The notes below the pieces were generated by a model that had not been told where the DNA came from, made no database searches, and was given only the letters and a program-made list of their open reading frames with translations. Shown piece after piece: positions 37,350-64,000 of a stretch of 64,000 nucleotides of DNA (its first letter is position 1; each line of letters begins with the position of its first letter). This stretch comes from Actinoalloteichus hymeniacidonis (GTDB lineage: Bacteria; Actinomycetota; Actinomycetes; Mycobacteriales; Pseudonocardiaceae): NCBI RefSeq assembly GCF_014203365.1, contig NZ_JACHIS010000001.1, positions 2,294,001-2,358,000 of the forward strand. The letters are read 5' to 3'. A program made the translations under genes and the position numbers.

Positions 37350-38000
37350 CTAGCCCAACACGTAGGCGATCGCTAGCGCGATCCGTTCGATCCGGTCGAT
37401 GGCGTCCGTGGCCTCCGCGTCGGTGATGCTGCGGCGTTGTTCGAGATCGCCGTCAAGAAGGTCGGCTTCGTGGGCGATCTTGTTACGACGGTCGGTGATC
37501 GCCACGAGCTGCTTCTTGAGCGTCTGCTCGGTGATTGTCGTTCGTCCGTAGGTCCATTCCTTAAGCTGGCGGGCAGCCTTCTCCCAGATGTTCTGGTTCG
37601 TGACCAGCTTCAGCGCCTCGCCGATCTTGCGCGGGTTCTGCAAGGAGGCGTTGGCCCACTTCGCCTTGACATGGTCGACGACCGCGTCAGCCAACGTGAC
37701 GGAACCCTGCTGCACCGCCTCCACCTTGGCTAACGGCAGCTCGAACCTGGTGAGCTGGTGCGGCATCTCGGTACCGTCCAGGGCTGCCAGCTCGGCGACC
37801 CGCCGATACAGCTCCTCATGAAACCAATGGTCGATGGCGCTGACCGCCTGCACCCACGCAGCGCGATAGAAGTCGCCGACGTCGATGACCGGCGATTGGA
37901 ACGCCGCCAGGTTCTGACCCGCGACGACCATCTTCCTGGCGTACTCGATGTTTCTGATGAACGCCTGAAACTCGCGCGTCTGCGGATGCCGGATTGCCAT
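37350..38000 (-). CDS. HEPN-domain protein (RiboL-PSP-HEPN type), putative RNase
   Basis: The 216-residue all-helical protein carries the HEPN R-x4-H signature at Arg172-Asn-Lys-Ile-Ala-His177 (RRNKIAHEAD). It also has an early helix with AWVQAVSAIDHWFHEELYRR, a pattern of the RiboL-PSP-HEPN group. HEPN proteins with this motif are often metal-independent RNases used in toxin-antitoxin, abortive-infection and restriction systems. It is the last gene on the minus strand behind hsdR-hsdS-hsdM. It starts 8 bases after a strong hairpin, and its likely ribosome-binding site (GGGGGCGG) lies in or beside that hairpin arm. Activity is inferred. Confidence 0.78.
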   Translation of the reverse strand: MAIRHPQTREFQAFIRNIEYARKMVVAGQNLAAFQSPVIDVGDFYRAAWVQAVSAIDHWFHEELYRRVAELAALDGTEMPHQLTRFELPLAKVEAVQQGSVTLADAVVDHVKAKWANASLQNPRKIGEALKLVTNQNIWEKAARQLKEWTYGRTTITEQTLKKQLVAITDRRNKIAHEADLLDGDLEQRRSITDAEATDAIDRIERIALAIAYVLG

Positions 38001-38007
38001 GAGCCGC

Positions 38008-38055
38008 CCCCGTCTCACTGAAATCAACCGCGTCAGATTTCCAGTGAGCACGGGG
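38008..38055 (-). terminator. hairpin between hsdM and the HEPN gene
   Basis: A stem of about 17 base pairs with two small bulges pairs 38008-38025 with 38036-38055: CCCCGT with ACGGGG, CTCACTG with CAGTGAG, and AAATC with GATTT. It lies between the hsdM stop (38078) and the HEPN start (38000). It could terminate transcription or hide the HEPN ribosome-binding site. Confidence 0.7.
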
Positions 38056-38077
38056 CACGGTCAAATGCATTGCCAGG

Positions 38078-44100: not shown

Positions 44101-44705
44101 CTGGCAATCAGGTTCTCAGCCTCGGCTCGCGCTCTGCGCTCGGCCTCCAACGCCGTCGAAGACTCGGCCAGCCGCGTTCTAGCGTCGGTCAACGCCTTGC
44201 GGTGGAACCCCAAGGCTTCGCGTAGCTCAGCCAGTTCGGCCGGGTCCGTGACGTGTGCACCCGGCGCTGGATCGGTGGGAGGCACGAACTCGGCTACCGT
44301 CCGACGGCCCTCGGTGGCGTCGTGGAACCATAGCCCGAGCTTGTAACACACCCGTACCGCGCTCAAGGCCCGCGTGGTATCGAAGAGATGCCGGTGCGCG
44401 GCGACGTTGCGATCGCGCCGCAGCCGATCGAAATCCTCCCGTATTCCGCTGACCAGCACGCCTTCCCTGACCAATGCCGCCAGCCTGTCGATCTGGCGAT
44501 CTCCGTCTACCCGGATGCCGATCCGGGTGATCAGTTCCTCAGCGAGCACTTCGCCGAACTGACCGGCCTGAACGAGCGAGGCATTCGGATTGCTGAAGAC
44601 GGTGGCCTCGGCGAGTGCGCCGTAGACAGCCAACAACGGCTGATGCTGGTAGAGAACCGCGAAGTTCGGTGAGCCCTTTGCAAGATCACGAAGCCGGTCG
44701 TCCAC
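41157..44705 (-). CDS. hsdR: type I restriction endonuclease subunit, HsdR
   Basis: The 1182-residue subunit has an N-terminal DUF4145-like helical region (1-125), a coiled coil (about 160-240), and a PD-(D/E)xK nuclease (GRADYVLYVDGR, then VIEAKRE at about 304-325). An SF2 motor follows, with Walker A ATGAGKT at about 451-457 and DECHRS at about 582, and then an EcoEI-type C-terminal region. It translocates and cuts unmethylated DNA. A motif R-N-V-A-A-H at about 99-104 matches the HEPN R-x4-H pattern. AAGGAGGTGA immediately precedes the GTG start at 44705, so this is the promoter-proximal gene. Confidence 0.95.
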   Translation of the reverse strand: MDDRLRDLAKGSPNFAVLYQHQPLLAVYGALAEATVFSNPNASLVQAGQFGEVLAEELITRIGIRVDGDRQIDRLAALVREGVLVSGIREDFDRLRRDRNVAAHRHLFDTTRALSAVRVCYKLGLWFHDATEGRRTVAEFVPPTDPAPGAHVTDPAELAELREALGFHRKALTDARTRLAESSTALEAERRARAEAENLIASADANKSRLLRQIEQLTTQVEALRTEQEAEYDAARRAPRKVDTVRRDAIISRAQRPAPLNEVQARTAIDKMLHAAGWAVQDRDRVNPRAAHGVAVREFGLATGRADYVLYVDGRIVGVIEAKREGDPLSSAVEQNDRYAAGVLKEHRLAVWREDEPFAFRYATTGTETYFINRLDPDARSRVVFWFHRPETIAAWMRRADESPATPTLRAALRTLPVLEENGLRLAQVDAITGLEDSLAKDRMRGLIQMATGAGKTFTAVAQTYRLLKHAGARRVLFLVDRNNLGKQAYDEFCKFTTPDDGRKLSDLYNINRLGPAGLQDTSSVVICTIQRMYSLLRGETLPDDETDAASTDQDTYETDQPIEVDYNEEVPIESFDLIVVDECHRSIFGLWRGVLEYFDAHMVGLTATPTVQALGFFGRNLVSEYTYPQAVGDGVNVDFDVVRMRTDLREAGGATIDAGTTVRVKDRKTRRQRYQELDDDFSYTTGQIGRSVVTVDEIRAVLVAYRDNWRRWFPGRSELPKTLIFAVGEDHAEDVLAQVKEVFSRGDDFAKKITYKSRQAGENPDDLIRALRTSPRLRVAITVDMIATGTDVKALECVIFLRDVRSAVLFEQMKGRGARTIDPTELQEVTPDADDSVRKTRFVLVDAVGVTESSLVDAKPLVPAGERQISLAKLLDKAGTASINVSEAEILAGRLARLNQQLTDEERDQLTKAAHGRTLSQIAGAIVTAADPDRQDRAQAEGGPAAARKLIEDAVAPLTKNPELRRHIIEIRRDKDYVFDEFTAVEVTEVAEIPREERAREQIDRWSRLLREERDRIAAVDLAVASPRSVSPGQAYDALKELAAEIRRPQYAWTPQVLWAYYEDLGASVAAGNRDADVPDLISLIRYELGVDQELRPYRASVEERFEAWLLRQQQAGAEFTPEQLWWLRSIRDVVASDVGISPAEFNAEPFKGKGSGLGFQRAFPERDVRSLLSELNRELA

Positions 44706-47297: not shown

Positions 47298-49610
47298 ATG
47301 GCTGAGATGGCTGACAGGCCCCTGCCACGCGCGGCGCGCAGGCAGGCGGCGGATCACCGACCACCCGAGGTGCCGGACGAGGGCGCATCGGGTGCTGGAG
47401 CAGCTACTCGGATCGGCGGTCGGCGTCGGCGCAGGGAAGCCGAAGCCGCAGCCGAAGCGGCCGGCTTCGTCGAGCCCGGTGGGTTCATCCCGCCGGAGAC
47501 CAGGGGCAGGCGAGCCCCGGCCGACGGCGAAACCAGCGGATCGTGGAGCGAGCCCGGACACGACGCCGAGCCAGGTGGGTTCGTGCCACCGGCTCCGCCT
47601 GCTTTTCCGGATTCCTTGGACTCGGGCGAGTTCGCCGTCCGGCAGCGCCCGATACCGCTGCCGCCGGGCGGCAGGCGGCGCCGGGCCGAACCCCCGACAC
47701 CGGACGAGCAGCCGTGGCCGGAGCCGGGCGCCGAGCCTCGCCGACGCCAGCCGACACCACCGCCGGAATCGGCCGAGCGGCCCGAAGCGCGCCGGCGTGC
47801 GGCAGAACCACAACCCCAGCGTGCGGCCGAACCCCGGCGTGGTCCACGACCGATGGAGGGCCGCCCACCGGGACGGTCCCCGGAGCGCGATGACGTCCAT
47901 CCACCGCCGGAGATACGCGAAATCGGCGCCGTGCGCGACGGAGGACGTCGCCGTCGCGCCGTCATGGAACCCGAATCGGCCGAGGAATCCGCACCTCGGC
48001 TGCCCTCGGGATTCCAGGACACCGACGTCCATCGCCGCCCGCCTCGGCGTTCCCCGAATGCCGAAGCACCGAATGCCGTAGCACCGAATGCCGTAGCACC
48101 GAATGGCGTAGCACCGAATGGCGCAGCACCGAACGGCGGAGCGCCGAACGGTCGCCCTGCTCCGCCCGACGTCCACGGCACACCTCCGCCGGGTCCGATA
48201 CCCACCCGACCACCGCGACCGAACCCGGCCGATCCCGCCGCGCGGCGCCCGACCGGGCCCCGGCGATCGCCGGATGCAGCGGGCTCCGCCATGGCCGAGG
48301 CACCTGCACCACCATCGAGGGGCGAGGTGCGTCCGCCGCGACCCGCCCCGCGTCGCGAGCCCACCGAACAACCGCAACGGCCGCCGCCCCGACCCCGTCG
48401 GATACCGCCGCCGAGCCCGGCCGAGGCGACCGTCCGACTGCCCAAGACCCAACCGGCCGCCGAGCAGCCGCCCTCGGACGAACCCGAGAACGAGACCGTC
48501 GTCATCCCGGCGGTGGTCGGCGACCGTCCTGCGGCGGCGCCCAAACGGCCCGGCCGGATCGTCTTCATCGACATCGTGCGCGCCGTCGCCGCCTTATGGG
48601 TCTTCTACGGCCACGTCGACATCCTCTTCCTGCAAGAAGAGGTCGGCTACACCTGGTTCACCTCCAGCTTCAACTACTTCGTCGGCCCGCCGCTGCACCT
48701 CGCGGAAGAGGGCATCGGTGCGGCAGCCGTGCCACTGTTCTTCCTGGTCAGCGGGTTCATCATCACGCCCATCGCCCTGAAGATGGGTGGCGGACGGTTC
48801 ATGACCAACCGGCTGATGCGGCTGTATCCGCCGCTGATCGCCGCCGTGTCGATCGCCGTGATCTTCGCCGCGTTCGGACTGTCGCCCCTGATCCTGCGCA
48901 GTCTCCCCGACATCACCGTGGGGACCGTCCTCAGCAACATGACATTGATCAACTTCTTCCAACGTCCGCTGGGTGCGTTCGTCGGGGTCGCCTGGACGTT
49001 GGCCGTCGAACTGCTCTTCTGCATCCTGCTGGCGGCGATGCTGCCGCTGCTGCGCCGCTGGATCTGGGCGGCGCTCGCGGTGGAGATCGTGATCATCGTC
49101 GGACTGATCCTGCTCGGCGACCTGCTCGGCGGCACCTTCGGCGTCTTCGCCTCCGAGCTGCCGTACCTGCTGGCGCCGATCATGGGCCAGGCCATCTGGG
49201 CGGGATGGAACGAGAAGATCCCCGGCTGGCTGGCGGGCTCCTATCTCGCGGTGTGCTGGGGCCTCTACGTGTGGACCTCGCACCTGGATCTGGCCGACGA
49301 CTATGTGCTGCGGCCCGCGCCGATGGCCTTCGGCCTGCTGATCATGCTGGTCGGAGTGGGCATGGAATCCCGGCTCCGACAGCGCGCGATCTGGACGTGG
49401 TTGTCCGATCGAAGTTTCTCGCTCTATCTGATGCACGCCGTGGTGGCGTTCCCCGTGATGCGTGGCCTGGTCAACGTGGTGCCGCTGTGGCTGACCCTGT
49501 TGTTGGGCGTGGCGGCCACGGTGCTGGCCGTCGAACTGTGCTTCCGCTTCGTGGAGAACCCGAGCCACAACCTGGCCCGCAAGCTCTCCCGAAGAGCGAA
49601 GAAGACCTAG
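47298..49610 (+). CDS. acyltransferase family 3 with long disordered N-terminal arm
   Basis: Residues 1 to about 415 are Pro/Arg/Glu-rich and low-complexity, with repeated GGFIPPE and GGFVPPA phrases and a PNAVA/PNGVA repeat around 253-285. The C-terminal 350 residues form an acyltransferase-3 membrane domain of about ten helices. It starts RIVFIDIVRAVAALWVFYGH, with the likely catalytic His in the last position, and includes GVAWTLAVELLFC, then SFSLYLMHAVV. Such enzymes O-acylate exopolysaccharides, peptidoglycan or lipids. ATG 47298 and ATG 47307 are both possible. The cytoplasmic arm may be a scaffold. Confidence 0.85.
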   Translation: MAEMADRPLPRAARRQAADHRPPEVPDEGASGAGAATRIGGRRRRREAEAAAEAAGFVEPGGFIPPETRGRRAPADGETSGSWSEPGHDAEPGGFVPPAPPAFPDSLDSGEFAVRQRPIPLPPGGRRRRAEPPTPDEQPWPEPGAEPRRRQPTPPPESAERPEARRRAAEPQPQRAAEPRRGPRPMEGRPPGRSPERDDVHPPPEIREIGAVRDGGRRRRAVMEPESAEESAPRLPSGFQDTDVHRRPPRRSPNAEAPNAVAPNAVAPNGVAPNGAAPNGGAPNGRPAPPDVHGTPPPGPIPTRPPRPNPADPAARRPTGPRRSPDAAGSAMAEAPAPPSRGEVRPPRPAPRREPTEQPQRPPPRPRRIPPPSPAEATVRLPKTQPAAEQPPSDEPENETVVIPAVVGDRPAAAPKRPGRIVFIDIVRAVAALWVFYGHVDILFLQEEVGYTWFTSSFNYFVGPPLHLAEEGIGAAAVPLFFLVSGFIITPIALKMGGGRFMTNRLMRLYPPLIAAVSIAVIFAAFGLSPLILRSLPDITVGTVLSNMTLINFFQRPLGAFVGVAWTLAVELLFCILLAAMLPLLRRWIWAALAVEIVIIVGLILLGDLLGGTFGVFASELPYLLAPIMGQAIWAGWNEKIPGWLAGSYLAVCWGLYVWTSHLDLADDYVLRPAPMAFGLLIMLVGVGMESRLRQRAIWTWLSDRSFSLYLMHAVVAFPVMRGLVNVVPLWLTLLLGVAATVLAVELCFRFVENPSHNLARKLSRRAKKT
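48054..48151 (+). repeat. 15-base tandem repeat in the acyltransferase gene
   Basis: Six to seven in-frame copies of a 15-base unit (CCGAATGCCGTAGCA and variants) encode PN(A/G)(V/E/A/G)A pentapeptides. In-frame units allow the disordered arm to change length without a frameshift. Confidence 0.9.
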
Positions 49611-52111: not shown

Positions 52112-54151
52112 TCAGCGCGCCTCGGCCGTCACCAAGAGCTGGAGCGTGGCCGCCACCCAGGCCTGCGCCCGCCGAGCCGGGTCCTGCGCACCGAGTGCGG
52201 TCTCGAACGCCGCCACCAGCGAGGCGCCGGTGCGCAGCCCCACCCGTTGCAGGCCGGCCGCAGCCTCGGACACCCGACGCAGCAGGGACGGCGAGAGGTG
52301 CGCGAAGCCTCGGTGCGCGGTGTCACCCAGCACCAGCAGCGCCGTGTTCAACGCGGTGTCCAGTGGCCCGAGTTCCGCCTCCGCGCCCCAGCCGAACGAG
52401 GCGGCGCCCGCACCGTCGGCCAGGTCCGGCACCACCACGGTCGATCCGGTCAACACGGCGATGGGGTCCAGCACCAGGCCACCCTGGACCCGGGTGAGGG
52501 CGCCACTGATCAATCGCACCGGATCGTCGTCCTCGGCTCCCCGCAGCGCCTCGGCCAACGCATCCAGGGAACCGGGACTGGTCGACCGGTAATGCGCGGA
52601 CACGGTCATCGTGTTGCCCGCGTCGTCGGCGATCAGGGCGCTCAATCGTTGTTCCCCTGGGTGGTAGCCGACCCCCAACACCTCTGCGGCGCGGACCACG
52701 TGGATGTTCTCCGCCTCGACCCGAGGTCGGATCAGCGACGGCGGGCGCCGCCGCATCGCCTCGGCGGTCGCCGCGAAATCCCGGACCAACAGCGGCTCCG
52801 GGAGACTCGTCCAGCTGGCACCCAAGGGCAGCACCGTCGTCTTGGCCACCCGGCTGTCACTGATCCGCATTAATCGACTGGCGTTGCGCGACGCCGATTC
52901 CGAGACGATCTCCGCGGCGGCCAACGACCGCAGCGACACCCCGTTGACCCGGCGATTCGCCAGGTTGTTCGGGGTCGGTGGCTCGCCGGTGACGGTGAAC
53001 TCCCGACGCAACACCATGACCGTGCGGGTCTCGAGTTCGGCGAGATACACATTGACGGTGCGGTGATGGGTGTTCTCGTCCGTCGAGCCCTCGATCCGGG
53101 CGCCGAGGCTGGTCAGCCGGACCCGCCGCAACGGGGTGTTGGCGGGTTCGTCGGTGCCCAGCACCCGCGAGCGGGGACTGGCGCTCGGATTGATCGAGGC
53201 CTGATGCCGGGCATGCAGTTCGGTGATGAGCTCGGCGACCCGCCGGCTTCGATGTGTCGCGGCGCGGTCGGTGTAGGCGGTGAGCTGCGCGGCGAGTTCC
53301 GTGACCGCGCCGGCAGGCCACCGCAGATCCGCCGCCTCCAGCGCGGCGGCGGTGCGATGCAGTTCGGCGAGAAACGCCTCGCCGGTGTGCATGGCGCCTT
53401 CGTTGAGCAGTCGATCCACCAGCACCAACGCCGGTTCGATGCCCGACGAGTCGGTGTCCTGTCGAGCCCCGCCCACATCGAGTCGGACGTCGTCGCCGGT
53501 GAGCCCGCGCTGATCGGCTTCCCGGAACGCCCACACCGCCAACGCCACGAACTCACCCTGATTGGCCTTGGCCGCATCCGAATGCGCGTAGCTCAACTCG
53601 TTCGGTACCAGGAAACGGACCGTGCAGCTGGGCAGCTCCACCCTGGCGATCGGGTCGGACGCAGCCGGACGGCACACCCGAGCCGAGAATCCGGCGCGCC
53701 GCAGCCGCCGCGCGCTGGTCATGGCACGTTTGCCGAGGAACTCGTTCAGGGCGTCATCGTCGATAGTGCCGGGAGACCAGACGGTGAACGCCGGATCGAC
53801 GGCGTTCGCGGTGTCGTCCGCAGCATCGGAGACCTGGGCCGCCGTGCCAGCCGTCTCGGTGGCAGCCGCTCCGGCGGCCATCTCCCGTTGATACGCCAGC
53901 ACCAGGCCGACCCGATGCCGACAGACCGAGGTCGAGGAACAGCCACAGGTGGCGGTGTCCAACCCGACGCCCACCGGTAGGGCGGCGTGGGCGCCGTCGG
54001 GGAAGACACCCACCACCGTGCCGTCGTCCTCGACGGTGATCTGCGGGAACGTCCCGGCGTCGAGGTCCTTGGTGGCGCGTTTGACCAATCCGCGATTGGC
54101 CAGTGAGGCCAGGGCCTCGCTGGACAGCGCCAGTAGGTCGGAGCGTGTCAT
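52112..54151 (-). CDS. SWIM zinc-finger protein (YehQ-like)
   Basis: The 679-residue protein has a SWIM zinc finger near its N-terminus: Cys69-x-Cys71 and Cys77-x-His79 in CGCSSTSVCRH. A long helical and beta region of unknown fold follows. SWIM domains bind DNA or protein. The gene is last in the order MoxR, DUF5682, VWA, SWIM, and its ATG overlaps the VWA stop (ATGA). The corresponding E. coli gene in the same order is yehQ, also uncharacterised. The C-terminal three-quarters has no motif I recognise. Confidence 0.85.
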   Translation of the reverse strand: MTRSDLLALSSEALASLANRGLVKRATKDLDAGTFPQITVEDDGTVVGVFPDGAHAALPVGVGLDTATCGCSSTSVCRHRVGLVLAYQREMAAGAAATETAGTAAQVSDAADDTANAVDPAFTVWSPGTIDDDALNEFLGKRAMTSARRLRRAGFSARVCRPAASDPIARVELPSCTVRFLVPNELSYAHSDAAKANQGEFVALAVWAFREADQRGLTGDDVRLDVGGARQDTDSSGIEPALVLVDRLLNEGAMHTGEAFLAELHRTAAALEAADLRWPAGAVTELAAQLTAYTDRAATHRSRRVAELITELHARHQASINPSASPRSRVLGTDEPANTPLRRVRLTSLGARIEGSTDENTHHRTVNVYLAELETRTVMVLRREFTVTGEPPTPNNLANRRVNGVSLRSLAAAEIVSESASRNASRLMRISDSRVAKTTVLPLGASWTSLPEPLLVRDFAATAEAMRRRPPSLIRPRVEAENIHVVRAAEVLGVGYHPGEQRLSALIADDAGNTMTVSAHYRSTSPGSLDALAEALRGAEDDDPVRLISGALTRVQGGLVLDPIAVLTGSTVVVPDLADGAGAASFGWGAEAELGPLDTALNTALLVLGDTAHRGFAHLSPSLLRRVSEAAAGLQRVGLRTGASLVAAFETALGAQDPARRAQAWVAATLQLLVTAEAR

Positions 54152-55284
54152 CGGCCGATCCTCTCCGCGACGAAGTTCGCCAGCTCGCCCGGCGTCATGG
54201 CGCCCACGTGGGCGCCGACGTTGGCCAGTCGCTGCGCGGTATCACGGTTGTAGTCGGGTTGGGCGTCCTCATCGAGCGCGGCGAGACCCAGTACGACGGT
54301 GCCCTGCTCTACGAGCTTGCGAACGCTGCGGATCAACTGGCCCTCGTCGCCGCCCTCGTAGAAATCGGTGATCAACGCGACGATGGTGCGTCGCGGGTTC
54401 TCGACCACGCCGGCTCCGTACTGCACCGCCTTGGCGATATCGGTCCCGCCGCCCAGTTGGACCTTCATCAACAACTCCACCGGGTCGGTCACGTCGTCGG
54501 TCAGGTCGACCACCGAGGTGTCGAAGGCGATGAGGTGGGTCTTGAGCCCCGGCAGTCCCCACAGACAGGCGGCGGTGACCGCCGTGTGGATGACCGAACC
54601 CGCCATGGAACCCGACTGGTCGGCGAGCAGGATCAGCTGCCATTGGTCGAGGCTGCGTTGGGTGCGGGAGAAGAATCGGGGTTGCTCGATGGAGATCCGC
54701 CGTTCCTCGGGCTGGTAGTGCCCGAGGTTCGCCCGGATGGTGCTGCGGAAATCGAAGTTGCGGGCCTGCTTGAACCTGCTGGGCCTGCGAGCCCTCGTTC
54801 CGGTGAACGACTGCCGCACCTCGGTACGCAGCTTCTCCATCAGATCCCGAATGACCTTCTCGACGATCTTGCGAGCCAGCGCGAGGACATCGGGATTCAT
54901 CAGATGCTTGGTCCGCAGCACCGCGCTCAACAGACTCGGGCTGGGCTCGACCCGCTCCAATACCGTCGGGTCGGTGACGATGTCGAGGATCTCGAAGCGC
55001 TCCACGGCGTCGCGCTGCAGGCGTTCGATGGTCTCCTTGGGGAACAACCGGTGTACCGAGTCGAGCCAGTCCACCGTGGTCAGGGCCGACGGCCCGTCGC
55101 CACCCTCCTTGCCTGCACCGCCGCCATCGCCTCGGATACCGCGCTTGGCCAATTCCGGGTCGCGGCCGTACAACCAGCTCAACGCCTGATCCCGGCCTGC
55201 GGCATCCCCGCTGAGACCGCCGGTGTGCTTCTCGGCGGAGCTGCCCAGGATCAGCCGCCATCGCTGGAGATCACTGTCGGACAT
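54148..55284 (-). CDS. VWA-domain protein (YehP-like)
   Basis: The 378-residue protein has an N-terminal helical half and a C-terminal von Willebrand A domain with a complete MIDAS: Asp222-x-Ser224-x-Ser226 in LADQSGSMAGS, a Thr in GGGTDIAKAV, and an Asp in ALITDFYEGGD. MoxR ATPases typically work with VWA proteins to remodel a target, and the two lie in one operon here. The N-terminal half contains a basic GTRARRPSRFKQ stretch. GGAGGCGTGACG precedes ATG 55284. It is placed between the DUF5682 and SWIM genes. Confidence 0.9.
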   Translation of the reverse strand: MSDSDLQRWRLILGSSAEKHTGGLSGDAAGRDQALSWLYGRDPELAKRGIRGDGGGAGKEGGDGPSALTTVDWLDSVHRLFPKETIERLQRDAVERFEILDIVTDPTVLERVEPSPSLLSAVLRTKHLMNPDVLALARKIVEKVIRDLMEKLRTEVRQSFTGTRARRPSRFKQARNFDFRSTIRANLGHYQPEERRISIEQPRFFSRTQRSLDQWQLILLADQSGSMAGSVIHTAVTAACLWGLPGLKTHLIAFDTSVVDLTDDVTDPVELLMKVQLGGGTDIAKAVQYGAGVVENPRRTIVALITDFYEGGDEGQLIRSVRKLVEQGTVVLGLAALDEDAQPDYNRDTAQRLANVGAHVGAMTPGELANFVAERIGR

Positions 55285-55286
55285 CG

Positions 55287-57662
55287 TCACGCCTCCGCTC
55301 CGCCGAGTCCCTCGCGGGCACACAGATCGGCCACTCTCGCCTCCAGCGCCATCGCCTCGGCCAGCACGGTCGGATCGACCGAGAGCCGCAGCAGACTCCG
55401 AGGGCTGCTGTGCTTCCCGCGTCTGGCGAGGAGTCCGGCCGCGATGATCTCGCGTTCCCTCGGGGGGAAGAACTCGAATGCGCCGCGCAGGGCGGGCAGC
55501 GCGATGAGGAAGTCCGCGTCGGGCATCGCCGAGATGATCTCGTCCAACACACTCAGGACACCCGACGTGTCGGTTTCGGCATCGCCGTGTTCCTCGCTTG
55601 TCAGTACCTCGTCACGGGCCAACACGAACAGCCCGGCCAACCAGTCGCCCAAGGTGGTGGGCAGCGCCGCGCCCCGGGCGGCCCTGGCCGCATCGACACC
55701 ACCCTGACCGGACGATCCCGCGTCGCCCATCGACCAGCAGAACCCGAAGGCCGCGCCACGAAGGTCCTGCGGAGCCAACTCGTCGAGGCTGATGCGTTGC
55801 ATCACCGCCAGCGCGGCGTCGCGATCCAAATCCAGCTCATGCTCGGCATGCCGGAATGCGTCACGCACGGCGGCGATCGCCTTGATCCGGGGCACATCCA
55901 TCGGGGCGGTGGCGCCCTGGACGCCCTCGGCGAGCCACAGCACCCGTGTCACGGCACCGCTGATGATCTCGCCGAACAACAGGCTGTGGGCCGACCCGAG
56001 CAGCGTGTCGTGCCGCCACAGGCCGAGGACCGTGGTCGACACCCGACCCAGTGCGCCGAGATCGGTCGCCCCGGCCACTCCTTCGGCCACCGCCGACACG
56101 ATGGTGTCCGCCAGCGTGTCGAGCCCGCACAGCGCCGCATCGAACAGCACGGCGGCCAGCGCATCGACATCGTTGCCTGCCTCGGCGACCTGCTCGGTCA
56201 ACAGCGCCGATGTCGCGTCGATCAGCGTGGCCCCATAGGAACCCGCCTCGATCAACGCGGTGCGGCGGGTCTCCAACGCCTGCAGGGCCCAGCTCTCCGT
56301 CGCCCGCGTATCGGCGCCGGTGCTCGGGCCGTTCACCCGGACGACGCCCGGGATGTCCAGCACTCGAAGGCGGTGCAACAGGCGACTGCGCTGGCGATCG
56401 CCGTCCTCGACGAGGTTCAGCTCCACGTCGCCATCACCGTCGAGTCCGTGCTGTTGCAGCTCGGTCTCCACGGCCAACACCAGCGGCGGGGCGGGGGTGT
56501 TCGGATGCAGCGAACCGACTCGATCGCCGCCCAGCGCGCTCACCATCGCCACCACGGCCGGATGCGCGCCCTCGGCGAGCGTGCCGCGCACCGTCCACGG
56601 CAACGGCTGATCGAGATCCTCCGAGACCAGCGCGGTGACCAGACCGTCCAGCATGTCGGTCCGGGTGGGCTCCGGATGGCCGCGCAGCCGGGACAGACCC
56701 TCGGCACTCGCGGTCGCCGCGATCAGATCCGCGGTGGACACCGGCTGCTTGTGCTTGCGCAACCGCTGCGCCACGATCTGCATGACCTTGGTCGCGGCCT
56801 GCCTCGGTCCGTTCTCCCACAGCTGTTGGTAGTACTCGGGGGAGGGCATCCCCGCCTGGTAGCCGACGAAGGAGTCCAACCTGGTGAAGGAGTACGGCAC
56901 CAGGAAACTCCCGCTGACCGCGCCCGCCGGTGGCTGCGGCACCACCGGTGGCGTGCAGTCGCCGTCGGTGGCGGCCGAGGCGGCGACCAACGCGGGGCGA
57001 TGGAAACCGCCGGTGATCACCAGGACTGGTCGATCGCCCGCCTCGACGACGGCGGAGCGCACCCAGGCGGCCATGTAGGCCTCGCGCGCCATGTCCATCT
57101 CGCCAGCTTCCAACGCGGCGAACGGCGCCGACTCCTCGTCGTGCTCGGCGGTCGGGTCCTTGGTGACCTGGCCGCGCAACAGGTCGAAGTAGGCGGTCAG
57201 TCGCTCCGCGAGCCCGCCGTCCGCCTGCGCCTCGAAGAGGTGATCCCAGAGGGCGTCGATGTTGTCCACCGAGAAGGTGCGACACAGCTCGTCGACCACC
57301 TCGGAATAGCGGTTCTCCGCGTCCGAGTAGCGGTTGCGTTGATCGGTCATCGAGTGATGCCACGCGGGCAGATCGATGAAACGGACCTCCGCGCCTGCCT
57401 CGCGACCCTTGGTGAGGGCGATCCATTCCGGCGAATAATCGCAGAACGGAGTCCAGGAGGACTGCGCGCGCTTGCCGTCCCGAAGGTAGCTGAAGATCGC
57501 CATCGGCAGTCGATGACCGAGCAGCAGCTCATCGATCCGGTCATTGAAATCGGACGGACCCTCCACCAACACGATCGCCGGGCGTAGCGATTCGATGGTC
57601 GAGGCGACCAGACGAGCGCAGGCCGGACTGTGGTGGCGGACCCCGATGAAGGTGGCGGGCAT
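55287..57662 (-). CDS. DUF5682-family protein (YehM-like)
   Basis: The 791-residue protein starts GVRHHSPACARLV, then RPAIVLVEGPSDF. A later RPVLVITGGFHRPALV adds a second His motif. This H / E / G-x-x-H arrangement recalls the TraB/TIKI/EreA-type hydrolase superfamily, so an N-terminal metal-dependent hydrolase is possible (inference). The rest is helical, perhaps a repeat scaffold. Function is unknown for the family. TGATG overlap with the MoxR gene and a 2-base gap to the VWA gene show tight coupling. ATG 57662 was chosen because the frame upstream overlaps MoxR. Confidence 0.82.
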   Translation of the reverse strand: MPATFIGVRHHSPACARLVASTIESLRPAIVLVEGPSDFNDRIDELLLGHRLPMAIFSYLRDGKRAQSSWTPFCDYSPEWIALTKGREAGAEVRFIDLPAWHHSMTDQRNRYSDAENRYSEVVDELCRTFSVDNIDALWDHLFEAQADGGLAERLTAYFDLLRGQVTKDPTAEHDEESAPFAALEAGEMDMAREAYMAAWVRSAVVEAGDRPVLVITGGFHRPALVAASAATDGDCTPPVVPQPPAGAVSGSFLVPYSFTRLDSFVGYQAGMPSPEYYQQLWENGPRQAATKVMQIVAQRLRKHKQPVSTADLIAATASAEGLSRLRGHPEPTRTDMLDGLVTALVSEDLDQPLPWTVRGTLAEGAHPAVVAMVSALGGDRVGSLHPNTPAPPLVLAVETELQQHGLDGDGDVELNLVEDGDRQRSRLLHRLRVLDIPGVVRVNGPSTGADTRATESWALQALETRRTALIEAGSYGATLIDATSALLTEQVAEAGNDVDALAAVLFDAALCGLDTLADTIVSAVAEGVAGATDLGALGRVSTTVLGLWRHDTLLGSAHSLLFGEIISGAVTRVLWLAEGVQGATAPMDVPRIKAIAAVRDAFRHAEHELDLDRDAALAVMQRISLDELAPQDLRGAAFGFCWSMGDAGSSGQGGVDAARAARGAALPTTLGDWLAGLFVLARDEVLTSEEHGDAETDTSGVLSVLDEIISAMPDADFLIALPALRGAFEFFPPREREIIAAGLLARRGKHSSPRSLLRLSVDPTVLAEAMALEARVADLCAREGLGGAEA

Positions 57663-58753
57663 CAGCCTGGCAGCCGGTGCCGGGCGTCGTGCAACGCCTT
57701 CCACTGACCGTCGGTGGCCTTCTTGGGCACCTGTTGTTCCAGGTAGCGGCGCAACCGGACCAGGTCCTCGCCGTTGTCCTTGGCGGCGGTGCCCGCCAGA
57801 CACTCCACGACGTCGGCGGCGTCGCCCTCCTGCCCGCGCAGGAACCAGCCGCGCAGCCCGACGGCGTGGGCGACCGACACCGCCTCGGCCGTGCTCATCA
57901 CGGTGGAGAGGCGTTCCATCGACTGGCCCTTGTCGGTCTTGCCTGCGCGTAGCTCGCGGAACGTGGTCACCAGCACCTCGAGCACGTCGCGCCGGGGCGC
58001 GATCTCGACGCCGGAGCGCCGCAGCAGGTTCCCGGCCTCGCGTTCCACCAGGTCGAGTTCGGTGTTGAAGTCGGCGATCGGGAACACCGTCTCGAAGTTG
58101 AAGCGCCGCTTGAGCGCCGCGCTCATCTCGTTGACGCCCCGGTCCCGGGTGTTGGCGGTGGCGATGACGTTGAAGCCCTCCTGGGCGAAGACCATCGAAT
58201 CGGCGCCGGTCAACTCGGGGACGGCCACCACGCGCTCGGAGAGCAGCGACAACATCGAGTCCTGCACTTCGAGCGGGCAGCGGGTGATCTCCTCGAAGCG
58301 GACGATCTTGCCCTCCGCCATGCCGCGCAGCATCGGGGCCGGCACCAGCGAACGCGGCGAGGGACCCTCGGAGACCAGCATCGCGTAGTTCCACGAGTAC
58401 TTGATCTGGTCCTCGGTGGTCGCCGCGCCGCCCTGGATGGTCAGGGTCGACTCGCCGCTCACCGCTGCCGCGATCAGTTCGGAGAGCAGCGACTTCGCCG
58501 TTCCCGGCTCACCGACCAACATCAGGCCACGACTCGTCGCCAGTGTCACCAGCGCCCGGTCGATGAGCGATGGGTCGCCGACGAACTTGCGGGCGATTCC
58601 GGCGCGCTCGTCGCCGACGATGAACCGGCGGGCGGCCGACAGACTCAGCGCCCATCCCGGCGGGCGGTGTCCGGTGTCCTCGGCGCGCAGCCGGGCCAGT
58701 TCGTCGGCGTACCGGATCTCGGCCGGTGGTCGTTGCAGGGTGTCGTGGGACAT
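57662..58753 (-). CDS. MoxR-type AAA+ ATPase (YehL-like)
   Basis: The 363-residue AAA+ ATPase has Walker A GEPGTAKS at 81-88, Walker B region VRFEEITRCP, sensor 1 region NVIATANTRDRG, and sensor 2-like LKRRFNFETVFP. MoxR proteins are chaperone-like motors that use VWA partners as adaptors, and such a partner lies two genes downstream. The ATG at 58753 has only a weak ribosome-binding site (AAGGAAG further upstream). It leads the MoxR-DUF5682-VWA-SWIM operon. The preceding gene is a truncated DUF4132. Confidence 0.92.
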   Translation of the reverse strand: MSHDTLQRPPAEIRYADELARLRAEDTGHRPPGWALSLSAARRFIVGDERAGIARKFVGDPSLIDRALVTLATSRGLMLVGEPGTAKSLLSELIAAAVSGESTLTIQGGAATTEDQIKYSWNYAMLVSEGPSPRSLVPAPMLRGMAEGKIVRFEEITRCPLEVQDSMLSLLSERVVAVPELTGADSMVFAQEGFNVIATANTRDRGVNEMSAALKRRFNFETVFPIADFNTELDLVEREAGNLLRRSGVEIAPRRDVLEVLVTTFRELRAGKTDKGQSMERLSTVMSTAEAVSVAHAVGLRGWFLRGQEGDAADVVECLAGTAAKDNGEDLVRLRRYLEQQVPKKATDGQWKALHDARHRLPG

Positions 58754-59002
58754 GGGGGATGCGGTCTTCCTTGTCGCGGATGGGCGAACGGGCGTGCGGT
58801 GTTGTCTTCGATGCCATCGGTGGCGCCTGCGTTCCATTCCCGGTGGACTGGAAAGCAACCCGGCGGTGTGCGGGCCACGGCTCTGATGACGGGTGTCGAT
58901 GCCTCGGCGGGGATCTCGACAGCGGCGAAACCGGTCCGCGCTCGGTTGAATGATTAACCTGTGGCGGACCCTAGCCGACGCCTATGACACCGCCGGGTGA
59001 GA

Positions 59003-60247
59003 TCAGCTCGTCAGGTCCAGCAGGGTCTGGATGAGTTCGGAGGCATCCAGCGGACCCACCTCGCTCAACGGCAGATCGGCCGAATCCCGATCGGATCGGT
59101 GCCCCACCAGCCGAACCCACTTGATCTCCGCCGCGAAGGAATCCTCGGCGTCGATCTCGACCAGGACGTCCCCGGCCCCGCTGACCAGCGGGAAACACAA
59201 CGTGGTCGAGTAGTACGTCCACGCCGCGTTGCGTCGGCAGAGCGCATGTACCCGGCTGGTGTAGGTCGTCATCCCATCGAACCGAGTGAGGCGATTCTCG
59301 GTGCGTTCGGCTTCGCTGAAGGTGTGCACCGGCCTGCCGAGTTGCGGAAACGGCTGGGTGATCAGGTAATCGGCGAAGACTTCGGACCACCGCGCCGGGT
59401 CGCCGCCCAGCAGGGCGGGATGCGCCACCATGACCTCGGCATCCTCGGCCACGAGCACTTCGTCGTCGTCGACATCGGCGAAGGTGCCGTCCTCGGCGAT
59501 CCGGAACGTGGTCGGCTGCTGTTCATCGACGGGTTGCGTCATCCACACCAGCCTGCGAGCCAGGTGGATGAGCAGTGGATGTCCGACGAGGAAGGTGCGG
59601 AAGTCGACGAGCTGCCAACGGTGCTGTAGCACCATCGCCGATTCCAGCGGAGCGATCTGATCCTTGGCGATGGCCTTCACATCGGCGCGCAGGCCCGCGA
59701 ACGTGGCGCGCGCGGCGGCGACCAGGCCCGGGTCGTCCTTGGTGGTTGGTCTGGGCAGGGATCGGCTGATCTTGCCGCTATGGTCGATGACCACGGGCGA
59801 GAGCCGTTCGTCGAAACCGACGGTGCAGCGCCTGCTGCCGAAGTCCAGGGTGAGGGCGCCGTCCTTGCCGAGTCCGAAGTCCGGCACGAGACGGTCCTCC
59901 ACCTGTTCGGTGGTCAGGCCGCGCGCGGTGCCGATGGCGGTGATCCGCTTGCGCGCATCCTTGGCCAAGCCTTTGTACTGCACCGTTCGGGAGATCAGGT
60001 ACAGGTGCAGCAGGGCGACATCGCTGCCGATGCACTGCAGCATGCCCAGACCGGTGACCGATCGTGAATGTGCGCCATCGCCGGGCCAAACGCTGATCAT
60101 CGGGGCCAGTCGACGAACGATCTCATCGTCGCCGAGCAGGGCGAGATTGGTGAATGCCCACCGCCGATTCGTCGGCATGCCCTCCTGCTCCCACGCGCGG
60201 AAGATCGCCCAGCAGAAATCGACCAGCGAACGCGGATCGCAGGTCTG
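59003..60247 (-). pseudogene. 5'-truncated DUF4132 gene (C-terminal copy)
   Basis: This frame matches the C-terminal third of the full-length DUF4132 gene to its right. Shared phrases include GLTTEQ..DRLVPD, VGFDE.L.P, HPLL...RRLVW, DV.ADY.I.QPFPQLGRPV. Homology begins exactly at QTCDPRSLVDF (60247) against RQACDPTSLSRF in the full copy. A TAG stands directly before it and no start codon occurs until ATG 60178 (AGGAG upstream). Residues 1-391 from that ATG could still be made. I read it as a partial duplication or decayed paralogue; a short functional protein cannot be excluded. Confidence 0.75.
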
Positions 60248-60523
60248 CTAATAAGAACCTGGTTCCATTCGGATGGCGCAAGCCGAATAGTCCGATCTGC
60301 CACATCCGCTTCGGGGTAATGGACGGCGCCGCGATCCGACACTCAAACCGAGGAATCGCTATACCGGTAGCCGCCGATCGGCATCATGGCCGGATGCGCC
60401 CGTGGTCCCACGCAGGTTCTCTCCGATTGCCGGATTCGCGGTGCGCGTGCCGAACGAAATCGGATGGCCCGCCGAGTCGCGCCTGCCTGCCACCCTGGCA
60501 GGCGTGGCAGGCAGGCAGCGATA
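60248..60523. other. intergenic region between the DUF4132 copies
   Basis: These 276 bases contain no supported gene. They hold a hairpin at 60481-60516 and separate the complete and truncated copies. If the short copy arose by internal loss, this is what remains where its 5' two-thirds should be. Confidence 0.6.
60481..60516 (-). terminator. terminator after the full-length DUF4132 gene
   Basis: GCCTGCCTGCCAC (60481-60493) and its exact complement (60504-60516) form a 13-base stem with a 10-base loop, 8 bases after the minus-strand stop at 60524. Confidence 0.72.
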
Positions 60524-63500
60524 TCAGCTGGCGCCCGCCGTCAGATCGGTGAGTGCACCGATCAACTCGGACCAGGCGATTCGGTCGGCCAGGGTGAATG
60601 TCGACCAGCCCTTGTCCTTGCTGCCCTCGGTCCACAGCCACACGTCGGTGATCTCCTGCACCGGATCGGGTGCGCCCATGACCGAGATCCCGGGGCTGAT
60701 CCGAATCAGCGCGCCGCGCTCGCCGAATTGCCGCACCAAGGAGATGCGACTACCTCGGGTGCCTGCTTCGACACCCTCCAACTTCCAGCCGGTGCGTTCC
60801 AATCCCAGTACCCGACCCGTCGGTGCGGTGCGGCCGTTGAAGGCAGACAGCCTCGTCGGATCCTGTTCCTGCGTGTCGCGTTCGTAGACCGGCCTGCCCA
60901 GCTGCGGGAACGGTTGCAGGATCTCGTAATCGGCGAAGACGTCGGTCCAGGCTTTCACCAGCTCGCCGAGCTGTAGGGGATGGGCGATACCGACCCTGGC
61001 GTCCGCCGGGATCGGACCGGGGTTGGACTCCCGGCCGCCGATGGTGTTCCCAGCATCATCGGCCGCCGTGGGCTGCACCGCGAATTCCGCGTCCTCGACG
61101 TCGGCCAGACTGCGATCCTCGGCAACGCGGAAGGTGCCGATCAGCTCACCGTCCCTCTCCACCACCCACACCAGTCTGCGCACCAGCTGACACAACAGCG
61201 GATGGCGCAGCAGACTCGTCTCGAACTCCGCCCACCGCCAACGGCGGCCGACGATCAGCGCCGCCTCTAAGCGACGCACCTGCTCGGTGGCGATGCCGCG
61301 CACCGACTTCTTGAGCGCGGTGAACCGCTGGTAGGACGAGGTCGCCAGCTCCGCGTCGTCGCGGACACCGGGCTTGGGCAGGCTCTTGCGCGACTTGCCG
61401 TCCTCACCGGTGACGAACGGTTTCAGTTGCTCGTCGAAGCCGACGATGAATCGACGCGGCCCGTAGTCCAGCTCCAGCGTGCCGTTCGGCGACAGTCCGA
61501 GGTCCGGCACCAGGCGGTCGGCGAACTGCTCGGTGGTCAGGCCGAGCCGATCCGCGTCCGCGCGGATGGCCCATCCTGCCTGCCGTGCCAGGCTCGCGGG
61601 TTTGTTCGTCTTCGCGATCGAGTGCACCAGCCGCAGGGTGTGATCGGTGTCCATCGTGCGTAGCGCGCCGAAGCCTGCCATACCGTAGCCGGCGGAACCA
61701 CTGCTCACCCAGAAACCGAGGAAACCCGCGAGTCGGGTCGCCGCCGCGTCATCGCCGAAGCGGCCCACCACGGTCAACACCCATTCGGTGTCGGCGGGCC
61801 GGTGCGCCGCCAGCCAGTCCTCGAAGAGCGCCCGGGCGAACCGGCTCAGCGAGGTCGGATCGCATGCCTGTCTGATCAGGTGCAGACCGGAGTAATCGCC
61901 GTAGAGACCGCCGATGGCGACCAGGGTGAGCAGGGCGCGGACGGACTCCCGAGGTAGTGCCGCTGATCGATCACGCAGCAGGATCTGCGGCAGCAGCCCG
62001 AGATCCAACCAGTCGCCGAGCGTCGGGATCGTGGCCGCAGGCTCGTCCAACGGTCTGAGGCGCAGCAGCTGTTCCACGATGGGACCGGCCGCATCGCCCC
62101 TGCTCCCGGCGGCCTCGACGACCGCCTCGGTCGAGGTGAGTTCGGCGACGAACCGCAGCGCCTCGCGGGCCTGCTGACGCCGCCGCCAGTCCTCGCTCAG
62201 TGCCCCCGACAGCAGATACGGCACGATCGTGGCCCCATGCCTGCGCAGATACGCCTCGGCGACCGGGCGCCGAGGATCGTCCGGGAGCAGTCCGCCCATC
62301 AAGACATTGGTGATGTCGACGGTGCGGAACGGCAACAACGCCCACAGATACTCGGCGGGCGGCGACTTCTTGGCGACCGTCCACAGGTTCTTCGCCGCCG
62401 ATTCTGGTCGCGCAGCGGCCAGTCGATATAGCCAGGCCGGATCGGAGGGCAGTGTTTCCGGATACCAGTACCGCAGGCGGCCCGAGGTGTACCTCTCGGG
62501 CGCCTCCACCAGCACGGGGATGTCCCACGCCGAGTCGAGCTTGCGCTTCTGGAACGCCTCGCCGATCTCGTCCCAGTCCGGTGTCCCCGACCACGGCGTC
62601 TCGGCAGGCATCGCCGCCCACTGTTCGCGTTCGCCGGGGGCCCAACACGCCCCTTCCTCGGCCACGGCACCGAGTTCGCCCTCGACCGGGCCGGTCTGGG
62701 GCCCGTCCCGTAGCCAGGAGCCCGATGCGAGGAAGTCCGGCAGGCTCGTATCCTCGGCGACCGGCCACCAGTCGGTGGGGCGCGGCACCGAGGCGCGGGC
62801 GGCGGTCACCAGTTCGGCCGCCCCGTCGACGGCACAGAACTCGGGGTCGGCCAGCAGTTCGTGCAGCAACCACGCGGCCACCAGCGCGGCCTGCCGCGTG
62901 GTCGGGTCCGCTTCCGTCGATTCGTCGACGGCCAGAGCCGGGAGCCGTCGTAGCGCCCGCAGCGGGAACCGGCGGGCTGCGGCCGACACGGTGGCATAGG
63001 CGTGCCGGGTACCGAGTTGCGCTGCCAGTACGTCGAAAGCGGCGTCGGTGGGCAGGGCGGCCAACACCTCGTAGACCCGGGCCCGCAGCGGTGCCAGCGA
63101 GCCGAGGGCGGCCAACACCGTCTCCAGCACCGGCAGCAGTCCCGCGCCCACCCGCTCGGCCAGGGTGAACACGTCCTCGGCCGTGGTCGGTATCGCGACC
63201 TCGCCCCAGCTCGACACCGCCGTGAGGTGCTCGGCCGTGGCAACGGTACGCAGCACCAATCCGCGTTGCGCCGCCAGCGCGAGGCCGAGCCACGGCGCCT
63301 GCACCACAGACTCGATGCGGTCGCTCTCGGTCGGTGTCAGATAGCAGGCGACCAACCGTTGCATCTCGCTGCCGTCGAGAACCGGTTCGCTCTCATCCGC
63401 GGCGTGACGCGGCGAGTCTGCGGGCGGACCGTAGGCGACCAGCTCCTGTGCTGCGGCCAGATAATCGGCGTCTGAAGCAATCGACAGCAGGGCCCGTACC

Positions 63501-64000
63501 CGGCGCGCCACCTGTTCGCCCGACCAGCCGAACGGCTGCCGGGTGTCCGAGTCGCGGCGCCGCAGATGCCGGGGCACCTGCGGATCCAATGACCTGCGAC
63601 CGGTTCCCGCCACATGCTCGATGCCCGCCAGCTCCGCCACGGCCGTGGCCGTGAACACGAGACCGTGGTCCTTCGCCCAGACGTCGGCGAATGCCGCGAG
63701 GCTGTCGAGGCGCTTGACATCGGCGGTGGCGGCGACGACCGCGAACACCGCCGCCGCACCGAGCGGGGTCGGCTCGTCCGCCAAGTGCGCTCGACCCGCC
63801 GCAGCAACGTCCTCGGACCCGTGTTCGCCGGTCAGTGCCTCCGTCAGAGCGGACTCGGCCTTGGTCAGTAAGCGGCGGACCTTGGCCCGAGCGCCCCGAT
63901 CCGGCTCGACGGCCGACTCGACTCTGCTGTGGCGCCAGGGATCGATGCGAGCCGCCCAGCTCTCGGGGACGACGAACGAGTCCTCGTTCGTCGCGGTGAG
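60524..64000 (-). CDS. DUF4132-domain protein (YehI/MolR-like), N-terminus outside window
   Basis: The frame is open to the right edge (1158 codons in window); the edge sequence reads ATNEDSFVVPESW, which looks near-N-terminal. The C-terminal third carries the DUF4132 domain: GLTTEQFADRLVPDLGL, VGFDEQLKPFV, HPLLCQLVRRLVWV, and FADYEILQPFPQLGRPV. The preceding part is helical, perhaps HEAT-like repeats. In E. coli the DUF4132 protein YehI (MolR) lies near the MoxR/VWA/SWIM genes yehL-M-P-Q, matching this locus. No catalytic residues are known. It probably works with the downstream MoxR operon. Confidence 0.88.
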   Translation of the reverse strand, partial: LTATNEDSFVVPESWAARIDPWRHSRVESAVEPDRGARAKVRRLLTKAESALTEALTGEHGSEDVAAAGRAHLADEPTPLGAAAVFAVVAATADVKRLDSLAAFADVWAKDHGLVFTATAVAELAGIEHVAGTGRRSLDPQVPRHLRRRDSDTRQPFGWSGEQVARRVRALLSIASDADYLAAAQELVAYGPPADSPRHAADESEPVLDGSEMQRLVACYLTPTESDRIESVVQAPWLGLALAAQRGLVLRTVATAEHLTAVSSWGEVAIPTTAEDVFTLAERVGAGLLPVLETVLAALGSLAPLRARVYEVLAALPTDAAFDVLAAQLGTRHAYATVSAAARRFPLRALRRLPALAVDESTEADPTTRQAALVAAWLLHELLADPEFCAVDGAAELVTAARASVPRPTDWWPVAEDTSLPDFLASGSWLRDGPQTGPVEGELGAVAEEGACWAPGEREQWAAMPAETPWSGTPDWDEIGEAFQKRKLDSAWDIPVLVEAPERYTSGRLRYWYPETLPSDPAWLYRLAAARPESAAKNLWTVAKKSPPAEYLWALLPFRTVDITNVLMGGLLPDDPRRPVAEAYLRRHGATIVPYLLSGALSEDWRRRQQAREALRFVAELTSTEAVVEAAGSRGDAAGPIVEQLLRLRPLDEPAATIPTLGDWLDLGLLPQILLRDRSAALPRESVRALLTLVAIGGLYGDYSGLHLIRQACDPTSLSRFARALFEDWLAAHRPADTEWVLTVVGRFGDDAAATRLAGFLGFWVSSGSAGYGMAGFGALRTMDTDHTLRLVHSIAKTNKPASLARQAGWAIRADADRLGLTTEQFADRLVPDLGLSPNGTLELDYGPRRFIVGFDEQLKPFVTGEDGKSRKSLPKPGVRDDAELATSSYQRFTALKKSVRGIATEQVRRLEAALIVGRRWRWAEFETSLLRHPLLCQLVRRLVWVVERDGELIGTFRVAEDRSLADVEDAEFAVQPTAADDAGNTIGGRESNPGPIPADARVGIAHPLQLGELVKAWTDVFADYEILQPFPQLGRPVYERDTQEQDPTRLSAFNGRTAPTGRVLGLERTGWKLEGVEAGTRGSRISLVRQFGERGALIRISPGISVMGAPDPVQEITDVWLWTEGSKDKGWSTFTLADRIAWSELIGALTDLTAGAS

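Follow-up and report, generated by a model that had tools for sequence, protein, structure and literature searches.

The stretch of DNA considered here (the window) covers 64,000 nucleotides of the genome of Actinoalloteichus hymeniacidonis. From position 52112 to 64000, a scan of open reading frames (ORFs) against Pfam places on the minus strand a cluster of genes encoding two DUF4132 proteins, a MoxR AAA+ ATPase, a DUF5682 protein, a VWA protein and a SWIM-motif protein (Table 1). A prediction made earlier from the letters of the DNA (the original prediction) had described five gene types on one strand with tight junctions between the last four, and this description is correct: the MoxR and DUF5682 genes share 1 base (TGATG), 2 free bases separate the DUF5682 and VWA genes, and the VWA and SWIM genes share 4 bases. 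All five families that it listed are present, but DUF4132 is represented by two genes in the window, the nearer of which encodes the C-terminal part only. This protein (DUF4132 a), 40-46% identical to the C-terminal parts of two full-length neighbours, is either a truncated or a short-form copy. Gene starts are codons of our choice; the raw frame of the DUF5682 gene, of 1035 amino acids (aa), overruns its likely start, and the start of the longer DUF4132 gene (DUF4132 b) lies outside the window, possibly at an ATG at position 64036 in continued numbering. Further upstream are two pieces of a third DUF4132 gene, then an intact fourth copy.

Table 1. Genes of the cluster, followed by other features of the region (window positions; continued numbering where stated).
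Feature	Position	Strand	Basis and remarks
DUF4132 protein b	64000-60524	minus	PF13569, 174.7 bits; about 1170-1190 aa, gene continues beyond the window
DUF4132 protein a	60178-59003	minus	PF13569, 164.4 bits; 391 aa, C-terminal part only
MoxR AAA+ ATPase, YehL type	58753-57662	minus	AAA_5, 121.3 bits; 64% identity to YehL
DUF5682 protein, YehM type	57662-55287	minus	PF18934, 354.4 bits; 791 aa; 34% identity to YehM
VWA_CoxE-type protein, YehP type	55284-54148	minus	PF05762, 188.6 bits; 59% identity to YehP; MIDAS intact
SWIM-motif protein, YehQ type	54151-52112	minus	motif CGCSSTSVCRH; 27% identity to YehQ
Broken DUF4132 gene, two pieces between intact copies	64163-64660 and 65212-65937 (continued numbering)	minus	
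Type I restriction-modification genes (N6 methylase, ResIII/EcoEI-type restriction subunit)	37350-44705	minus	ORF roles judged from length
Protein with a membrane part and, N-terminally, a long low-complexity stretch with APN repeats	47298-49610	plus	probably the Acyl_transf_3 match of the scan

The original prediction had recognized in this cluster the same set as yehI and yehL-M-P-Q of Escherichia coli, and the gene names were right. In strain K-12 the order is yehF (WGR family), yehH (a pseudogene), yehI (DUF4132), yehK, yehL, yehM, yehP and yehQ; that of the window is identical, with identities to the E. coli products of 27-64% (Table 1; about 30-34% for DUF4132). The alignment of MoxR with YehL runs across 360 aa, DUF4132 b and YehI show 30% identity along 471 columns in the C-terminal part, and the window SWIM protein aligns with YehQ over 641 columns (E 9e-53). 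As judged from these alignments, the likeness of the two sets is far beyond chance. The SWIM proteins differ in detail, the window protein having one CxC...CxH motif and YehQ two; on the former the Pfam SWIM model reaches 12 bits, under the cut-off of 19.6 that YehQ exceeds. The yehLMPQ genes are matched in 5,301 of 5,426 complete E. coli genomes, yet they are little studied. At least 80% of yehLMPQ is covered in one place in 5,162 genomes, versus 4,104 for the stretch from the metG end through yehI (whose any-match count, 5,374, includes matches to metG alone), so that the DUF4132 array seems less stably kept than the motor genes.

A wider view was obtained by scanning GTDB genomes with the peptide pattern [VI]RHH[GS]P[GA][SC]A of DUF5682, the best 80 of at least 586 relatives being taken. 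Because a single pattern was used, these 80 loci lean to the type found in the window, and residues H10 and H11 of DUF5682 are invariant in them by construction. According to the record titles, they come from Actinomycetota, Pseudomonadota, Acidobacteriota, Myxococcota, Verrucomicrobiota, Cyanobacteriota, Planctomycetota, Bacteroidota and Lachnospiraceae. Eight loci were set aside as too short; in the 72 with enough flank, and counting SWIM and DUF4132 anywhere in the fetched stretch, DUF5682 is accompanied by MoxR in 71, VWA in 70, SWIM in 68, DUF4132 in 57 and DUF5691 in 9, and DUF4132 and DUF5691 are never found together. Part of the set is absent in seven loci (L101, L138, L154, L155, L156, L157 and L171). 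A very distant DUF5682 group was also seen in L074-L077 (about 97-105 bits, frames of 1000-1400 aa); L074 adjoins MoxR and VWA genes in a different order. The families also co-occur, as the original prediction implied: among 246 Actinomycetota genomes, DUF5682 is present in 19 (7 of them from one genus), DUF4132 in 13 (12 above cut-off) and both in 10 (Fisher p about 1e-10, uncorrected for relatedness), and in 9 of these 10 the two lie 1.4 to 7.1 kb apart, being far apart in the remaining one (G171). Nine of the 19 DUF5682-bearing genomes are without DUF4132, which is found away from the machine as well.

The module comes in several flavours. Flavour A has the order DUF4132-MoxR-DUF5682-VWA-SWIM and flavour B the order SWIM-DUF5691-MoxR-DUF5682-VWA, the latter also on plasmids of Rhizobium and Deinococcus, on a Methylosinus plasmid where no VWA gene is listed, and on a Hymenobacter plasmid where no SWIM gene is separately annotated. 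In flavour C, DUF5682 and VWA form one protein. In two Rhizobiaceae plasmids (Sinorhizobium and Agrobacterium) and in loci L147 and L152 of the 80, DUF4132 stands between DUF5682 and VWA. The genome of A. hymeniacidonis itself carries a second, diverged set at 1.79-1.81 Mb, consisting of a short DUF4132, giant proteins, a MoxR that is 52% identical to that of the window, a SWIM-motif protein and a 1195-aa protein that holds both DUF5682 (617 bits) and VWA (204 bits). Beside this set, at 1789567-1792809 of the minus strand (L014:3567-6809), lies a gene whose 1080-aa product combines an AAA part with one of the HerA/DUF87 type. The DUF5682:VWA fusion recurs in six other Actinomycetota loci, where genes were called by GC content at codon positions and some were missed, so that absences there carry no meaning; a 1255-aa ORF of a Streptomyces plasmid, judged from its length and label, is probably such a fusion too. 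The presence of DUF5682 and VWA on one polypeptide argues for joint work in one complex.

Given the conserved order and membership and the second set with DUF5682 and VWA in one protein, we conclude from comparative data that the cluster is one module, YehL-YehM-YehP-YehQ plus one or more DUF4132 partners. The claim of the original prediction that a machine-like module is conserved between enterobacteria and actinomycetes is thereby supported. The genes could instead serve neighbouring but separate functions and be held together by co-regulation only, and no interaction data were found. The overlapping genes, the order preserved across phyla, the DUF5682:VWA fusion and the insertion of DUF4132 within the operon in some lineages nonetheless make this highly improbable.

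The MoxR and VWA proteins carry the motifs that a working pair would require. The window MoxR displays Walker A (GEPGTAKS), Walker B (FEEI) and sensor 1 (ATAN) motifs and, by sequence likeness, is assigned to the known YehL subfamily of MoxR; the VWA protein has the metal ion-dependent adhesion site (MIDAS) motif DQSGS/GGGTD/LITD. Walker A and the EE motif are each kept in 74 of 77 MoxR relatives, the misses looking like failures of ORF reading (a stricter first pattern had given 60 and 60 of 77), and the strict MIDAS pattern is kept in 70 of 76 VWA relatives, DxSxS being retained in 5 of the other 6. Median identity to the window (best high-scoring segment pair) falls across 31-33 actinomycete loci from MoxR (77.5%) through VWA (70.8%), DUF5682 (54.4%) and SWIM (43.9%) to DUF4132 (34.0%); for 17-19 loci of other phyla the values are 63.6, 59.7, 39.9, 30.1 and 34.8%, respectively. 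An identity that falls from motor to periphery would fit a constant motor with faster-changing partners.

The DUF5682 protein is where an enzymatic activity may reside. Its AlphaFold model, built with 61 sequences, has a mean predicted local distance difference test score (pLDDT) of 90.6 and combines an alternating alpha/beta N-terminal part, with a predicted TraB/TIKI-like region at about residues 1-260, and helical repeats at about residues 400-790. H10, E34, D97, R193, G218 and H221 are invariant in 61 of 61 aligned sequences (H10, as said, partly by construction, together with H11), and unchanged in 21 of 21 members of a second, more varied set. The invariant positions of fifteen TraB/PrgY/GumN proteins taken from other genomes are G16-H19, E45, E143, R215 and G238-H241, and the same motif set (two GxxH, acids and a basic residue) occurs in DUF5682 in the same order. 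In a single local comparison of the two profiles, hhalign gave a score of 30.6 (E 0.0013), to be set against best scores of 20.0 and 25.6 in two series of 100 column shuffles and 14.1 with a reversed profile; the alignment over 200 columns obtained with -mact 0 pairs by eye positions of the H10-H19, E34-E45, D97-E143, R193-R215 and H221-H241 type. As for structure, when model residues 1-235 are compared by VIA-align, a single subunit of Tetrahymena complex IV fills the top rows (Z 9.5, 181 aligned residues, root-mean-square deviation (rmsd) 4.8 Å, target length 383). Entries 8B6H and 8BQS are among these rows, and their paper reports a TraB-family subunit in Tetrahymena complex IV (PMC10060162). 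Against a viral structure library, the best match was with a TraB family protein (prob 1.00, E 0.011). Searches of PDB sequences with the DUF5682 profile stopped at E 0.058; with a single TraB fragment no chain was retrieved at E 1, and the chains retrieved with a TraB profile were all unrelated. A TIKI-family protease requires two His and two Glu residues (PMC6254334). On these sequence and model comparisons, we consider it probable, though not proven, that DUF5682 begins with a hydrolase domain of the TraB/TIKI type.

The same conserved His/acid set could hold a metal, which leads to a different role for the motor: MoxR-VWA could load a cofactor, such as a metal, into DUF5682 or an unlinked client, much as NorQ/NorD act on nitric oxide reductase and CoxD on CO dehydrogenase. 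Known MoxR/VWA pairs do mature enzymes (PMC3893208, PMC9976466), and the window VWA belongs to VWA_CoxE. However, the TIKI-family RRSP is reported to be metal-independent, though Tiki itself is metal-dependent (PMC6254334), and cofactor maturation leaves the SWIM, WGR and helical-repeat partners unexplained; we regard it as unlikely.

These partners vary more than the motor. A DUF4132 domain is found in the fetched stretch of 63 of the 80 loci, two or more in 29 of those 63; the family often occurs in tandem arrays, often with WGR. In an E. coli strain other than K-12, three DUF4132 genes in tandem are annotated as intact, and the first two exceed the Pfam cut-off for WGR, as does a Sinorhizobium protein; WGR is present in loci of several phyla, and the two window proteins have no Pfam match to it. 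Broken DUF4132 copies exist in E. coli too, namely yehH and one in an O157:H7 strain. The A. hymeniacidonis genome has 11 DUF4132 matches for 2 DUF5682 matches; six of these places (L016-L021), some of them mere fragments, are distant from both DUF5682 genes, which indicates that DUF4132 can be copied without the machine. The AlphaFold model of DUF4132 a is confident (pLDDT 94.2) and has no clear structural relative, the best rows being helical repeats aligned to residues 1-99 (Z 9.9) and the best Foldseek E value 0.16; a PDB sequence search with the family profile gave E 0.3 at best. In another flavour DUF4132 is swapped for DUF5691. Homology to DUF4132 was considered and rejected both for DUF5691 (hhalign E 0.55, no signal) and for the giant proteins of the second flavour (E 0.65, no signal); the mini-DUF4132 is a relative (E 1.6e-6). 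The original prediction had missed this replacement by DUF5691, the DUF4132 arrays and the probable TraB-like domain; new here are the DUF4132 tandem arrays, often with WGR, and probably the TraB/TIKI-like domain of DUF5682.

The retained MoxR and VWA motifs and the identity gradient lead to the proposal that MoxR-VWA gates the DUF5682 enzyme while DUF4132 or DUF5691 and the SWIM protein find the target. In the model put forward for NorQ/NorD, the VWA protein sits as a plug in the MoxR ring and uses its MIDAS to hold the client by an acidic patch (PMC9976466), and by analogy the VWA protein of the cluster would plug into its MoxR ring. The ring and VWA would then, using ATP, pull on or open the DUF5682 enzyme, or a substrate that DUF5682 holds, the latter protein contributing its predicted TraB/TIKI-type hydrolase domain and its helical-repeat arm. 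Recognition of the target may fall to DUF4132, with its helical repeats and often an N-terminal WGR, or to DUF5691, in either case jointly with the SWIM protein. ATP-gated cleavage of a protein or peptide would be the likeliest biochemical outcome.

Several points weigh against this proposal, many of them bearing on the hydrolase domain. In 7 of 61 DUF5682 sequences P replaces the first GxxH glycine, and in 6 the residue is missing. The hhalign probability of the DUF5682-TraB match is just 18%, default settings keep only the second GxxH region of the alignment, and the global mode gives no signal (E 0.77). The VIA Z of 9.5 is, per the tool's own note, barely above the level of unrelated models. 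We deduce that the TraB subunit of the paper is this Tetrahymena chain; the TraB profile did not retrieve the chain by sequence. In Foldseek against the PDB, the DUF5682 model obtains no E value below 0.001; the list is mostly of HEAT-like repeats and the Tetrahymena chain ranks 42nd (E 0.2). The viral TraB match has a template modelling (TM) score of 0.43 by target length and an rmsd of 12.4 across 262 columns. Outside Actinomycetota the identity order breaks at its end, SWIM (30.1%) falling below DUF4132 (34.8%). We know of no activity or interaction of the cluster products, nor of a phenotype that speaks to mechanism. All considered, that the cluster is one module in which MoxR-VWA gates a DUF5682 hydrolase, with DUF4132 or DUF5691 and SWIM as recognition parts, is a tentative reading whose chances fall slightly short of even.

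The nature of the proposed recognition parts raises the question of DNA damage, as WGR senses DNA breaks in PARPs. In a DNA-damage machine, the WGR of DUF4132 and the SWIM protein would read broken DNA or DNA-protein complexes, where the MoxR-driven enzyme would remove or cut proteins. The WGR domains of the two intact E. coli paralogues, of Sinorhizobium and of loci of several phyla speak for such a role, although WGR is not matched in the DUF4132 proteins of the window. A LexA-like site with 13 of 20 consensus letters lies in K-12 just upstream of yehF, at the head of the array (L011:6448-6467), and is identical in two other E. coli strains, but a second 13/20 site occurs elsewhere within the same 35-kb stretch of K-12. 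The name molR refers to this E. coli locus. The molR gene is included in lists of LexA-regulated genes (PMC11039860, PMC4576408, PMC3978071), and yehH and yehQ appear in a table of multi-stress genes (PMC9501238). Against this, none of 15 other proteobacterial loci has a LexA-like site reaching 13/20, the best being 12/20 in five places (one of these matches precedes the Erwinia DUF4132 gene by about 0.8 kb), and SOS boxes of actinomycetes, sought as GAACN4GTTC in the genome of A. hymeniacidonis and as CGAACN4GTTCG in the neighbourhoods, are scattered and none stands consistently before the clusters. In Deinococcus radiodurans, treatment with mitomycin C increases a DUF4132 protein, an effect that depends on IrrE (PMC8533742); the gene of this protein, however, has no demonstrated MoxR neighbour, and the strict DdrO pattern is unmatched in the stretch examined from Deinococcus taeanensis. 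The links to DNA damage are thus suggestive, not general, and we judge a dedicated damage machine to be rather improbable. A composite of the two ideas is equally doubtful: an undescribed AAA+-gated protease in which MoxR-VWA would feed or open a DUF5682 peptidase, and DUF4132-WGR arrays or DUF5691, with SWIM, would direct it to DNA damage or stalled nucleoprotein in some bacteria. If true, it would be an overlooked ATP-dependent protease in nearly all E. coli.

The original prediction had further suggested a conflict system, which the data do not bear out. The cluster would then represent another class of phage-defence or conflict system alongside the MoxR-vWA ternary systems, which do exist (PMC7159879). 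Its fast-changing partners, its DUF4132 arrays with broken copies, its presence on plasmids in some cases and the type I restriction system about 7-15 kb away in the window would all fit. However, a PADLOC scan of the six cluster proteins returned 0 matches at E 0.01, and the flanks of 40 of the 80 loci are not rich in defence models. Among 110 proteins hand-picked from the 189 ORFs of these flanks, without the longest and some of the shortest, 25 PADLOC models were matched at E 1e-5, 22 of them in one protein each; the commonest were mad8, mad3 and AriA (4, 3 and 2 proteins), and the singles include PD-Lambda-2_C, AbiLi, HEC-01A, PD-T4-6 and SduA. As a rough comparison from one window, which is no proper control, the 31 window genes outside the cluster match 62 models, because of the type I restriction system. 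The near-ubiquity of yehLMPQ in E. coli is also contrary to a defence role. Two scans of viral contigs returned no relative, and the 50,697 phage records searched contain a single one, on a metagenomic scaffold. This record, MT835988.1 (L088), is labelled 'Bacteriophage sp.', carries a full-length DUF5682 and is probably bacterial DNA. Phage defence is not supported, and we consider it decidedly unlikely.

The preferred reading, a tentative one, is that of an ATP-gated hydrolase with exchangeable recognition parts. The original prediction had called the system undescribed, which is true of the E. coli proteins in that they are annotated without function, but not of the motor, the YehL subfamily of MoxR having been named in print (PMC3893208, PMC11834572). 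Within the literature searched, which left out preprints and most subscription journals, DUF5682 and DUF5691 were not found named, DUF4132 appears in three papers, and the passages on yehL-M-P-Q gave no mechanism; a yehQ deletion was made in a study of butanol tolerance (PMC6442406). Overall, the interpretation given in the original prediction is partly supported. With a probable enzyme fold whose catalytic residues can be named, a motor expected to gate it and a swappable recognition part, this 'y-gene' puzzle becomes directly testable in a laboratory strain. Should the ATP-gated hydrolase be real, bacteria would own a further class of AAA+ proteolytic machine.

Comparison with known systems places the cluster closest to E. 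coli yehI/yehL-M-P-Q, which has the same families in the same order at 27-64% identity; it differs in the absence of a WGR match in the window DUF4132 proteins and in the single SWIM motif of the window protein, YehQ having two. With NorQ/NorD, CbbQ/CbbO and RavA/ViaA the cluster shares a MoxR ring and a VWA adaptor with MIDAS (PMC9976466), but its pair is tied to DUF5682, SWIM and DUF4132 or DUF5691, not to a respiratory or carbon-fixing enzyme. The MoxR-vWA ternary conflict systems (VMAP, iSTAND, FtsH, beta-propeller) likewise build on MoxR and VWA and add other partners; among the Pfam matches of the six products none corresponds to one of their four third components, the Pfam coverage of VMAP and iSTAND being unchecked, and the window MoxR stays under the bpMoxR cut-off of the beta-propeller systems (22.1 vs 27 bits). 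The main text of the paper on these ternary systems mentions neither SWIM, WGR, TraB and Tiki nor YehL (PMC7159879). Finally, DUF5682 resembles the TraB/PrgY/GumN and TIKI hydrolases in the order GxxH...E...acid...R...GxxH, in profile and, more weakly, in predicted structure, and differs from them in its long helical-repeat arm and its tie to an AAA+ motor.

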